A stretch of DNA of 64,000 bases from Powellomyces hirtus. Lineage: Eukaryota > Chytridiomycota > Chytridiomycetes > Spizellomycetales > Powellomycetaceae. The position numbers and the translations under genes are program-made. The stretch spans positions 248,001 through 312,000 of the forward strand of contig JAHLKG010000027.1 in the NCBI GenBank assembly GCA_025526995.1. Reading direction: 5' to 3'. Shown here in pieces: positions 36,191-41,203 of the stretch (position 1 is the stretch's first letter; every line of letters starts with the position of its first letter). A model generated the notes under the pieces. It ran no database searches. It saw only the letters and a list, made by a program, of their open reading frames with translations, and had not been told where the DNA came from.

Positions 36191-36523
36191 TGTGTGCTTG
36201 ATATTTGCAGTTGCAAGGAAAGAGTTGAGGGGGGAACTATGGGTTGAATTTACATACAATGCCAGAGAGAAAGATGCCCAGACGGGAGGCGGCAGAGACG
36301 TGAGTCGAATTGAGTTGGACGTGGCAGGTCAGAGTTGGTATTACTCATGCCACATATGGAAATATGAACTACTGCGCCTGCTGCGCTTCGACAAAGCGAA
36401 CTATAAACCATTCAGTTGTTGCAATCTTCCCCCATTCGCCCTTTTCAATTCCAGAGCACACACACTACGTTTGATTTCCCACAGTCTCCACTTCAGGCAC
36501 ACGCAACCACAGCATTCAACAAA
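36191..36523. promoter_or_regulatory. Divergent promoter of RAMP4 and EAF7
   Basis: About 330 nt between two start codons on opposite strands. No coding sequence or clear TATA box recognised. Confidence 0.4.
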
Positions 36524-37123
36524 ATGTCCGACAAAGATCCCGCCGACTTGCCCACTCCCACAACCCCAACCCCAACCTGGACCCCCGAACAAGAGATCGC
36601 GCTCTTCCACGCGCTGACCAAGTTCCGCCCCGTCGGCGTGCACAAGCATTTCCGCATGCTCTCCGTTCAACGCTTCGTCGCCGCCTCCACAGGTGTCTCG
36701 TTCACCATCGCCCAACTGTGGGCCCACCTCGCTACATTCTACGAACTCGATGCCCTCGATGCCATGGCGGATGAAACCGACGACGACATCACATTTGAAG
36801 CCAGGAGAAGACGATCCGGGTATCCGTTTAAAGTGGTCGCGGAATTTCAGTTGCCGAGTGAGGAGTTTGAAAATCTGATTGTGGAGCAGAGGAAGGCGGC
36901 TTCACCGACTCCTGTGGAATCGACACCGGAGCCGGAGGAGGAAGATAAGGCCCCGCCTGCGACGGCGCCCGCGAAACGAGGCGTCGGGAGACCGAGAAAG
37001 GCGACCAAGAAGGAACAGCCGCTGTCGGAACCTCCCATGAGACGAACCCGCGCGGCATCTGGATCGGCGGCTGTGACCAACACCCCGACGCCGGCGACGA
37101 AAAGACCCCGGAGAAATGCATGA
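36524..37123 (+). CDS. EAF7/MRGBP (CT20 family) subunit of NuA4
   Basis: A subunit of the NuA4 histone acetyltransferase that bridges MRG15/Eaf3. Intronless, 199 aa. The CT20 domain occupies residues about 18-90: WTPEQEIALFHALTKFRPVG, VHKHFRMLSVQRFVAAS, LWAHLATFYELDALD. An AT-hook-like stretch (RGVGRPRKATKK) near residue 150 and a basic C-terminus (TKRPRRNA) fit a chromatin protein. The start has MSDK directly before Pro/Thr-rich sequence and the domain; the frame is open upstream but nothing conserved lies there. Confidence 0.88.
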   Translation: MSDKDPADLPTPTTPTPTWTPEQEIALFHALTKFRPVGVHKHFRMLSVQRFVAASTGVSFTIAQLWAHLATFYELDALDAMADETDDDITFEARRRRSGYPFKVVAEFQLPSEEFENLIVEQRKAASPTPVESTPEPEEEDKAPPATAPAKRGVGRPRKATKKEQPLSEPPMRRTRAASGSAAVTNTPTPATKRPRRNA

Positions 37124-37264: not shown

Positions 37265-39024
37265 TCAAAAGTTCATCGGCTGCCTCACCCCATCCTCCGG
37301 CTTGTACCGCAGGTTCAACGCATCTGGTCCCAACGCCGACACCGCGACCTTGAACCTCGCCCGGAGCTTATCCAACGCGACAGTCGGGTCCGGTCCCTCG
37401 TCTGGGTTTGTATAGTTTTGTCGCGGGAACTCCTTGGCTTGAATGCGGAGGGATTGGAGCGCTTTCAGGGCTCTGCAAATCAATGAGGATTATTTGTTTG
37501 ATGTACGGTGCCGGGTGCAAGATGTCGGTCTTACCGATCAGAAGGTGTGATCAACCCCATTTCGGCCGCCTTGAGGTATGTGTCGGCTACGCCGCCATAG
37601 AATCCGGCTTCTTGACCCATGGCGAATCCAGCTTCTGTTCCTGCTACGCGACCTTCCACGTGGCCGGCATGTACCCCGTCTCTCAATCCATCTTCCCGAC
37701 CCAATTCCTCAAACCTACACATAGAAAAAAAGAAACGAAGAAAGCACACATACGCATGTCAGAACGAAGGAATGTGCATCCCATCTATAATCTACTCATG
37801 TAAACATGGAACCATCGCTCCCTGTGGTGGTCCTGGGAGGTGCATTTACATTGTCTCCAAGTGAATCAAGTCGTCGACCTTGAACCGCTGTCCCGCTGAT
37901 GTCGCGAAGGCGGCCCGTGTAAACACCTCGGCAAAGGATCGGATGACCGGCACGTCGTGAGCGTCAGGAAGCGTGATCGAGTCGAAGTCGGCTTCGACGG
38001 TGCCGCCTCCGGGCGCTGGTGACGGCAACGGTGCATTTCCAGGTCGGTGCGCGATGGCAACTTGGTAGTTGGCTGAGATGGCCGCGGCAATTTCTGCACA
38101 GGCGAGGGAAATGTGAGCGCGCCGGCATTCAACTGATTGCCGCCTCGGAGGAATGGGGTCCGTTGTTTCTATACCTTTCACATTGTCGCTAATGAACAGC
38201 AGAGTCGCCGGGTCCCGCCCAATCGTCTGCGCAATCTTTTCATAGGACTCCCGTTCGATTTTTAATCCCACGCCAGTGTCAAAGTGGCCTTTGAAGTACT
38301 ACACACCACCATCAGCTGTCAGACAGGGCAACTAACACCACAAAAAGTTGCTACGTATGTTGACACGTACCTTAAGCAAGTCACCCTTCTCTGACCACTC
38401 AAACAACAACTTCTGCGCTTCAACACTGCCGGAGGAGTAAATGTAGATGTCCACGCCTTGCGCCGTCCATTTGTCTAGCGCCGGCACGACGTCGTCGTAG
38501 ATTGCGCCCTGGATCTGACCACTTTCGTAGGCGGATCGCCACATGTAGCCCTTTTCATTAGGTTTGGGTTAGTACGGCTGATCTGAGGGTGATATGTTGA
38601 TGGAACCAGCTTTGTACCTGCAGAGCTTTCAGCGGACCAATCTTGCGGTCGATCGACATCTGCCACCGTACATTGTCCACCACCGACTGTCTGACTTGCT
38701 CTGCTGCCGCTCCCTCCGTCGCCAATATCGGGACGGCACCATCTAGCCCACCTGCGACATCCTTTTCGGCCTAACAGTATCCAGACCACACAAACTCGGA
38801 TGAGTTTTCCACGAAAGTATTCAGCATGGAAAAAAAGCCGGTACCTGCTCCCTCAAAGCATGCACTTTGGAAACACATTCAGCTTCCTCCCAGTGATCAG
38901 CGAGAAACCCCTGCAGGTGGTCCTTGACGTATGGAAAGAGCACATCATGTACAAACGTGATGGGCGTTGTTGTCCCCTCGATATCGAGGATGACCGTAGT
39001 GTATGGTTGGGGCTCCGCTGCCAT
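37265..39024 (-). CDS. Enolase-phosphatase E1 fused to LTO1
   Basis: Seven exons join in one frame (39024-38845, 38770-38618, 38550-38371, 38298-38175, 38093-37850, 37714-37535, 37472-37265) to 422 aa. Residues 1 to about 265 are enolase-phosphatase E1 (UTR4/ENOPH1, methionine salvage), a HAD enzyme: nucleophile region VILDIEGTTTPI (Asp14, Glu16), IYSSGSVEAQKLL, FISDNVKE and AHRPGNAPL. Residues about 286-422 are LTO1: VDDLIHLETMFEELGRE, the deca-GX3 series from DGLRDGVHAGHVEGRVAGTE to EAGFYGG, and the C-terminal YKPEDGVRQPMNF. LTO1 with YAE1 recruits the Fe-S targeting machinery to ABCE1. The junction intron (37849-37715) splits ATG as AT/G. If it is retained, the enzyme ends at LETM. No separate ATG for LTO1 was found in frame. 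Confidence 0.82.
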
Positions 39025-39247
39025 CGTTATCTATGTACAGTTGTGGGAGTTGGCTATTGCAGCGTTCGGTATGGGAATCTGTTCTTCGCCTTTATGAGGG
39101 GGTTTTGCGAGACGCAAGCCTCGCTGACTAACAAAACCAAATGAGAAGGAATCGATGAAACGAGTAGCGCTTTGACAGATCACTTCAACCTTGCTCGAGT
39201 CATTAATATACCATATAGACTATCTACAGAAGACGAAGAGATTTATA
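39025..39247. promoter_or_regulatory. Short divergent promoter, ENOPH1-LTO1 and NDOR1
   Basis: Only 223 nt separate the two start codons. AT-rich elements (taatatacc and catatagac) lie near 39206-39222. The arrangement would allow shared regulation of the LTO1 fusion and NDOR1, both linked to cytosolic Fe-S assembly. Confidence 0.5.
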
Positions 39248-41203
39248 ATGATGGATCACGCCCCGGACCGCCCACACCGCTCACTGCTCGTTTTGTATGC
39301 TAGCGAGACGGGCACGGCTCAGGACGTTGCGGAACGCATAGCCCGCGAGGGACGACGGAGGTGGTTTGTGCCCACTGTTTTGAGCATGGACGAATATGAT
39401 CGGGTAAGGTATTACAGCCTCGTTGGTATGCAGTATGGAAGATGCTGACAAGAATATGGCATTTTGTAGTCACGGCTGATTGACGAACCATTGGTCGTCT
39501 TTGTCTGCTCTACGACCGGCCAAGGCTCTGAACCCGCCAGCATGACCAAATTCTGGAAATTCCTGCTCCGCAAATCCCACCCGCACAACATCCTCTCCAA
39601 CACCCGCATCGCGGTTTTCGGGCTCGGCGACTCATCCTACCCGAAATTCAATTTCCCCGCCAAAAAACTGCACAAGCGACTTGTGGCGGGCTTGGGCGCC
39701 GTTCCTGTTGTCGAGCGCGGTGATGGCGACGATCAGCATTATTTGGGTGTTGATGGCGGGTTGGATCCGTGGCTGGAGGATCTGTGGGCAAAACTGTTGA
39801 CGATTTGGCCATTGCCCCCTGGAAAGGAGATTGTTAGTGCGGATATTGTGCCCCTCCCGTCCTTTGAGATCTCGTTTGCGGAGATGAATGGGGGTGGGGA
39901 TCCAGTTGACGGTATGTTTGACCAGCTCGGGCTCAACAGACATGTGCCCTCGGCGACGGCTTCCACACCACGCTTAACAGCGGTCGTCAACGTCAACCAG
40001 CGAATCACCGCCCCAGACCATTTCCAAGACGTCCGCCATTTCGAGTTCACGGTTGATCAACCCACCCATAACGCGGGCGACATCATGGTCGTCTTCCCCC
40101 ACAATCTCCCGGACGAAATCGCGCTCGTCATCGCTCACTTTGGATGGACCGATGTGGCCGACAAGCCCTTCACCCTCAAGCCCACTTCCCCGGACATCCA
40201 TCTCCCCCTTATCCACCATCACGCTCCGCTCACCATCCGTCACCTCCTCACCCACCACCTTGACATATTCGGCCGTCCCCGACGCTACTTTTTCCACCTC
40301 CTCTCCTTCTTCACCACCGACCCGCTCCATGCCTCGAAACTGCGCGAACTTGCCTCCCCGCAAGGGCAACAGGAGCTTTACTCGTATGCCCACCGCCCTC
40401 GCAGAACAATGTTTGAAATCCTGCAAGACTTTCATTCAGCAAAAGTGCCCCTCAAATACCTCCTTGACCTCATCCCACCCATCCGACCACGAAACTTCTC
40501 CATCGCATCTTCACCTACTACCCACCCTACCAAGATCCATCTCTGTGTCGCCATCATCGAATACACCACTAAAATGAAGGCACCTCGAACGGGCGTCTGC
40601 ACTAAATGGATGAAACACCTGCAACCCGGAAACAAAATCACCTACTCCATCAAAAGGGGAACATTGCGACTCCCTTCCCCTGATAAACCTCTCATTTTAG
40701 TCGGGCCAGGAACGGGCATTGCTCCCATGCGCGCACTCCTTCATGAACGAACTACCAACGGACTCACAGACAACACCGTGGTCTTTGGGTGTCGCTATCA
40801 GCACAAAGATTTTCTGTATGCCGATGAATTGACCGCACTGGAACGCGCGGGCGCATTGAAGCTCTTGACCGCGTTTTCGAGAGATCAGGACAGTAAGATA
40901 TATGTCCAGCACCGCATTGCCCAAAACAGCGCCCTTGTGTACGACGCGATGGTGGCGCGGAAAGGGACGTTCCTCCTGTCAGGGTACGCAAACTTGTTGA
41001 ACGGTACTCTTTCACACTGCGAGAACCGCTGTTCACACTATCTGTTTCTACCCTACAGCAACGCATCTAGAATGCCCGTAGACGTCACCGCAGCCTTGGT
41101 CGAATGCGTCATGCGCGAAACGGGAGTCAAGACCGAGCAGGCAGAAGAAGTCGTCAAGACGTGGGAAAAGGAAGGCCGATTCCAGATGGAATGCTGGTCA
41201 TGA
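39248..41203 (+). CDS. NDOR1: NADPH-dependent diflavin oxidoreductase 1 (TAH18 type)
   Basis: Passes electrons from NADPH through FAD and FMN to the Fe-S protein DRE2/CIAPIN1 in cytosolic Fe-S assembly. Exons 39248-39403, 39470-40983 and 41059-41203 give 604 aa, the family length. FMN domain: LLVLYASETGTAQDVAE, VFVCSTTGQGSEP, VFGLGDSSYPKFNF. FAD domain: PRNFSIASSP (R-x-F-S). NADPH domain: LILVGPGTGIAPMRALLHER, FGCRYQHKDFLY, and near the end GSGxxNRMPxxV-like SGNASRMPVDV. The lack of an N-terminal membrane anchor separates it from P450 reductase. ATG 39248 is followed by a second in-frame ATG at 39251. Confidence 0.95.

Follow-up and report, generated by a model that had tools for sequence, protein, structure and literature searches.

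Can an enzyme of methionine salvage and an adaptor of iron-sulfur protein assembly be the two ends of a single polypeptide? The question is raised by a gene of the chytrid Powellomyces hirtus, found on the reverse strand of a 64,000-nucleotide stretch of contig JAHLKG010000027.1 (positions 248,001 to 312,000, hereafter the window; the host genome assembly, GCA_025526995.1, comprises 29.26 Mb in 60 contigs). Its predicted 422-aa product is read in one frame across seven exons and begins with a full enolase-phosphatase E1, followed by a short linker of variable sequence and then by LTO1 (Table 1). The exon 5/6 junction reads ...HLET-M-FEELGRE, the Met codon being divided AT/G by intron 5. Six donors read by eye were combined with every AG acceptor in short search intervals; only this product and one of 419 aa, which uses an alternative first acceptor, stayed in frame. 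The gene model agrees with the initial annotation in its coordinates, seven exons, single frame and junction (37850/37714). Intron 4 (38094-38174, 81 nt) has a length that is a multiple of three and contains no stop; its retention would add 27 residues, an insert seen in none of nine aligned database proteins.

The same arrangement is present in relatives. A search with the LTO1 region, among 900 candidates restricted in length to 0.55-1.75 times that of the 422-aa query, returned nine proteins at E ≤ 1, one of them from P. hirtus. The remaining eight, which represent seven species in six further genera, are all fusions across the same junction: Thoreauomyces humboldtii, Geranomyces variabilis (two clusters), G. 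michiganensis, Spizellomyces punctatus, Phlyctochytrium arcticum, Gaertneriomyces sp. JEL0708 and Fimicolochytrium jonesii. Because eight relatives' proteins (P0001-P0008) span this junction, the fusion is more than chance. The comparison with related chytrids that had been suggested at the outset thus bears out the in-frame E1-LTO1 fusion, and at the level of sequence the observation holds and now covers at least seven genera. NCBI taxonomy places the fused genera in Spizellomycetales, except P. arcticum, which is listed under Chytridiales; a 2025 internal transcribed spacer 2 (ITS2) study gives its current name as Triparticalcar arcticum, among Spizellomycetales (PMC11762872). All carriers of the fusion are Spizellomycetales if P. 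arcticum is counted there. In the shortened form displayed, the database names of these fusions are ‘Enolase-phosphatase E1’ (five), a chemical name of the same enzyme (one) and ‘HAD-like’ (two); none of these shortened names includes LTO1.

Mean pairwise identity was compared over 11 segments in the window protein and P0001-P0007, with P0008 and P0009 excluded as truncated. It is 0.65 in the E1 core and 0.24 in the linker, reaches 0.84 in the 12 LTO1 residues that precede intron 5 (283-294), the best of the 11 segments, and is 0.76 in the deca-GX3 motif, 0.50-0.55 in later LTO1 segments and 0.83 in the last three residues. That a segment conserved in LTO1 is encoded in an E1 exon is the strongest argument that the exon 6 splice is used. 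The FKVDDLIHLET segment is also present in four full-length separate LTO1 proteins.

Two neighbouring genes might nevertheless have been wrongly joined, with LTO1 starting at an ATG within intron 5 or at the split M294. The initial annotation had reported no separate in-frame ATG for LTO1, which proved incorrect: one lies at 37722-37720 within intron 5, in a frame (MCRFEELG...) open back to TGA at 37761. M294 is, moreover, invariant in 10/10 rows of the alignment, in which the P. hirtus sequence occurs twice. However, the product of the intronic ATG would be an LTO1 missing the conserved first helix, and products from either start would lack the best conserved segment, FKVDDLIHLET, which in the four separate LTO1 proteins follows their own N-terminal Met. 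HLETM occurs in these four proteins as well, so M294 is no new start, and in eight of nine fused proteins there is no further Met back to RPGNA (Gaertneriomyces has two). A mistaken join is very unlikely.

The E1 half matches 1yns at 257.8 bits over residues 5-255, and the domain search of the 422-aa product that was recommended earlier gave PF00702 at 46.6 bits (cut-off 26.4). TIGR01691, for which relatives only were scanned, is passed by P0001 and P0007 at 226.1 and 233 bits (cut-off 128.1). Residues D14, E16, T18, S150-S153, K184 and S208-N210 are invariant in all ten aligned rows, and we take them to fill the catalytic roles of the HAD motifs DxExT, SSGS, K and SDN. By homology and these motifs, the half is a predicted acireductone synthase (enolase-phosphatase E1). 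Fold and motifs are like those of known E1 (human 1YNS, yeast Utr4 2G80, TIGR01691); whereas known E1 ends after its last helix, the fusion carries a C-terminal LTO1 domain.

LTO1 is an essential adaptor in yeast, where its deca-GX3 motif of 40 residues binds Yae1, its C-terminal Trp (Phe in some organisms) binds the cytosolic iron-sulfur assembly (CIA) targeting complex, and Yae1 brings Rli1; D4 and the first two deca-GX3 glycines matter least (PMC4523923). Its role is to help supply a ribosome-recycling factor with iron-sulfur clusters. All ten deca-GX3 glycines are present in the window protein, and nine or ten in each of the eight fused relatives. A C-terminal Phe is found in 8/8 full-length fused proteins (P0001-P0007 and the window protein, which ends in MNF); P0008, a truncated or shifted model, has a different C-terminus. 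The C-termini of the four separate LTO1 proteins read N-F in two cases, A-F in one and S-F in one. An LTO1 profile gave 46.2 bits for human LTO1, against 9.0 for a partial human YAE1 sequence and 10.3 for the Yae1 of P. hirtus, which itself scored 48.5 on YAE1 and 15.4 on LTO1. These scores assign the half to LTO1 and not to its paralogue Yae1. Fold searches aimed at the LTO1 half gave two result lists filled by the E1 half and no usable LTO1 fold match; by sequence, the LTO1 half had no match in the PDB at E 10. The half shares with LTO1 (ORAOV1, cytosolic iron-sulfur assembly) the ten-glycine deca-GX3, the C-terminal aromatic residue and a separate Yae1 partner gene. It differs in that its N-terminus is tied to an enzyme, whereas LTO1 in Rhizophlyctis and Borealophlyctis is a separate protein of 148-156 aa; to our knowledge, LTO1 is known solely as a small separate protein.

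A search with LTO1 alone (143 aa) returned five proteins among 60 candidates, from Borealophlyctis, Rhizophlyctis (two), Blyttiomyces helicus and an 85-aa environmental piece; none of the named ones comes from Spizellomycetales. E1 without LTO1 was found in Rhizophlyctis, Borealophlyctis and Blyttiomyces (P0015, P0016, P0017, P0020) and also in Quaeritorhiza (P0021), a genus that the ITS2 study places as sister to Spizellomycetales in some trees, a position taken by Rhizophlyctidales in the final tree (PMC11762872). From an E1 search the best 120 of 2759 proteins were kept, and an LTO1 profile built from 12 sequences, run over 125 proteins, matched only the fusions P0001-P0008 and the five proteins of the LTO1-only search, P0010-P0014; more diverged fusions may lie beyond those best 120. 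Other long E1 proteins were considered as LTO1 carriers and rejected, having no match to the LTO1 profile. In the seven that were read (P0025, P0036, P0050, P0064, P0080, P0093 and P0119, from Mortierella/Linnemannia/Modicella/Podila, Batrachochytrium and Globomyces), the extra length lies mostly ahead of the E1 core. In the environmental piece (P0014), unrelated sequence runs into the FEELG stretch, a layout that in this one fragment would fit an intron at the same site. Rhizophlyctis rosea P0017 (561 aa) resembles the fusion in joining another domain to the same end of E1, but its partner is a PHP domain (69.6 bits). Since a second R. rosea record, P0016 (268 aa), is E1 alone, P0017 could be an erroneous model, or else a further fusion at that end. 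Both in a tree of LTO1 and in one of E1 and LTO1 joined, the fused rows fall on one side of a branch (72/91 and 81/84), as they do in 76% of the 200 bootstrap trees for either data set.

We consider it probable that one gene encodes one bifunctional protein throughout the lineage, LTO1 serving Rli1 maturation and E1 methionine salvage. Originally separate, the two genes would have become one in the Spizellomycetales ancestor when E1 lost its stop and LTO1 its start. E1 (Utr4/MtnC) would act as usual in methionine salvage, and the LTO1 half would bind the separately encoded Yae1 through deca-GX3 and dock on the CIA targeting complex by its free C-terminal Phe; Yae1 would then bring in Rli1/ABCE1. 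The variable linker would allow both halves to work, and the main effect of the tether would be obligatory joint production. Expression as one protein, both activities and a single origin are what we infer. Partner genes for Yae1, MMS19 and an Rli1-type protein are present in the genome. Fer4_RLI domains lie at two places, one of which may be Tsr3. A genome search for a second E1 or LTO1 found neither, and both functions therefore probably come from the fusion alone. The targeting tripeptide of Leu1 fails with three residues added behind it (PMC10623007); an enzyme at the N-terminus of LTO1 leaves both of its binding surfaces accessible, and the fusion would thus be expected to remain functional. 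Acireductone dioxygenase is encoded at two genome loci (C5:1235384-1235973 and C18:373498-374039). This enzyme uses a metal ion and not the Fe-S pathway of LTO1; an iron link through it is conjecture.

Several points weigh against a bifunctional protein. Its support consists of sequence comparison and predicted structure. The P. hirtus database model P0009 (two member sequences) has 294 aa, is 100% identical and lacks LTO1; it ends at the intron-5 stop codon and so equals the intron-retained product. The Fimicolochytrium model (P0008) loses LTO1 similarity after about residue 381, perhaps through a frameshift or a wrong model. The break sits a few residues past SDR, the position of intron 6 in the window. 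Pfam Yae1_N (PF09811) reaches 19.2 bits in the window protein, below its gathering score of 27.5; this family is insensitive here, because the separate chytrid LTO1 proteins P0010 and P0013 also have no match at E 0.01. The structure model is weak over the first part of LTO1 (mean pLDDT, the predicted local distance difference test, of 51-68 in blocks 281-320). The strict targeting complex recognition (TCR) tripeptide, [LIM]-[DES]-[WF], is found in one of the eight full-length fused proteins (MSF, Thoreauomyces), the others ending in MNF or LNF; the window's MNF departs from it by Asn at position -2, where the D778A change in Leu1 is tolerated (PMC10623007). Finally, the E1-only tree scatters the fused genes, with four changes and with a single change in 0% of 200 bootstrap trees. 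Resolution in this tree is poor (7/25 inner branches starred), and the approximately unbiased test does not reject a single clade of fused genes (p 0.135). A single origin of the fusion is the simplest reading of the trees, short of proven.

Model P0009 also bears on the proposal, made in the initial annotation, that one gene could make both the enzyme alone and the fusion. Retention of intron 5 gives ATG and then TAA and a product ending at M294, so the claim that translation would stop one codon on and leave a complete phosphatase (294 aa) holds. Retention of the intron, or polyadenylation in it, might then serve as an isoform switch yielding E1 alone, with splicing setting the amount of LTO1. 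Intron 5 is the longest of the six (135 nt against 62-81), retention places TAA straight after ATG, and P0009 is the exact 294-aa product. Against a switch, the intron-5 donor matches 7/9 consensus positions (6, 6, 8, 6 and 6 for introns 1, 2, 3, 4 and 6), and the models of 8/8 relatives cross the junction. Retention would also place a stop ahead of intron 6 and so probably expose the transcript to decay, and the excerpted text of the paper that sequenced P. hirtus CBS 809.83 names RNA-seq for the annotation of Synchytrium endobioticum only (PMC6572847). A weak intron-5 donor was considered as the cause of retention and dropped on the 7/9 match. We regard such a switch as possible but unlikely.

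A decaying LTO1 passenger, with Rli1 matured otherwise, would fit the truncated models in P. hirtus and Fimicolochytrium, and yeast without oxygen does not need YAE1 or LTO1 (PMC4523923). However, the identities of the N-terminal helix (0.84) and deca-GX3 (0.76) exceed that of the E1 core, with later helices below it; nine or ten of ten glycines are kept in 9/9 fused proteins, and the genome search gave no second LTO1. Decay is therefore extremely unlikely. The tether could instead be a functional coupling, in which E1 senses or feeds methionine-salvage flux and tunes Rli1 maturation and ribosome recycling, or the reverse. The fusion has been kept in seven genera, Powellomyces included, with E1 motifs, GX3 and domain order retained, and related functions are usual among fused genes (PMC2759508). 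Yet the linker is variable and its residues 278-283 fall below pLDDT 50 in the structure model, so that nothing points to a fixed interface, and a search of the openly licensed literature found no such link. We hold functional coupling to be quite doubtful. A physical form of it, in which the state or abundance of E1 would control LTO1-Yae1 and hence Rli1 maturation, and intron 5 splicing the ratio of enzyme to adaptor, seems distinctly improbable. Obligatory joint production of the two halves remains the preferred account of the tether.

The gene diverges from a neighbour whose flavodoxin domain matches NADPH-dependent diflavin oxidoreductase 1 (4h2d) at 175 bits, compared with 60-63 bits for P450-reductase flavodoxin fragments. 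The whole protein reaches up to 227.5 bits on full-length P450 reductases, NDOR1 being listed by its flavodoxin domain only, and the neighbour is best read as TAH18/NDOR1. Tah18-Dre2 belong to the same pathway as LTO1 in yeast (PMC4523923), and the divergent placement at 223 bp suggests shared control in this genome. On the other side, a convergent open reading frame (36407-37123, + strand) encodes Eaf7 (PF07904, 70.6 bits).

Table 1 Features of the E1-LTO1 locus, in window positions
Feature	Position	Strand	Basis
Complete E1-LTO1 fusion gene (422 aa from 7 exons)	37265..39024	-	gene model and homologues
Exon 1, E1 domain	38845..39024	-	gene model
Exon 2, E1 domain	38618..38770	-	gene model
Exon 3, E1 domain	38371..38550	-	gene model
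Exon 4, E1 domain	38175..38298	-	gene model
Exon 5, E1 end, linker and LTO1 N-terminal helix FKVDDLIHLET(M); no in-frame ATG	37850..38093	-	
Intron 5, 135 nt, splits M294 codon AT/G	37715..37849	-	P0009 and gene model
In-frame ATG close to the intron 5 acceptor end, candidate start codon for a truncated LTO1	37720..37722	-	
Exon 6, LTO1 deca-GX3 motif, 10/10 glycines	37535..37714	-	
Exon 7, LTO1 C-terminal helices, C-terminal MNF	37265..37472	-	gene model
Divergent intergenic region, 223 bp, shared with TAH18/NDOR1-like gene	39025..39247	.	
TAH18/NDOR1-like diflavin reductase, predicted (3' part of the gene model provisional)	39248..41203	+	

Searches of the openly licensed literature found no report of an E1-LTO1 fusion in chytrids or Spizellomyces. 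It is absent from the titles and abstract openings of papers on methionine-salvage gene fusions, and the only match for ORAOV1 fusions or domain architecture concerns fish apoptosis. The protein is a combination of known domain kinds with no literature match among the openly licensed papers searched. Like it, the fusions MtnBD, MtnAK (Tetrahymena) and MtnBC (Arabidopsis) contain a salvage enzyme and have a limited distribution, but they join enzymes of the same pathway, whereas the partner of E1 here is a non-enzymatic adaptor from another (PMC2759508). The fusion can mislead annotation, as P0009, which lacks LTO1, and the names silent on LTO1 illustrate. It makes testable the tolerance of LTO1 for a large N-terminal partner, a link between methionine salvage and ribosome recycling, and how such fusions become fixed, and it offers a candidate molecular marker for Spizellomycetales.
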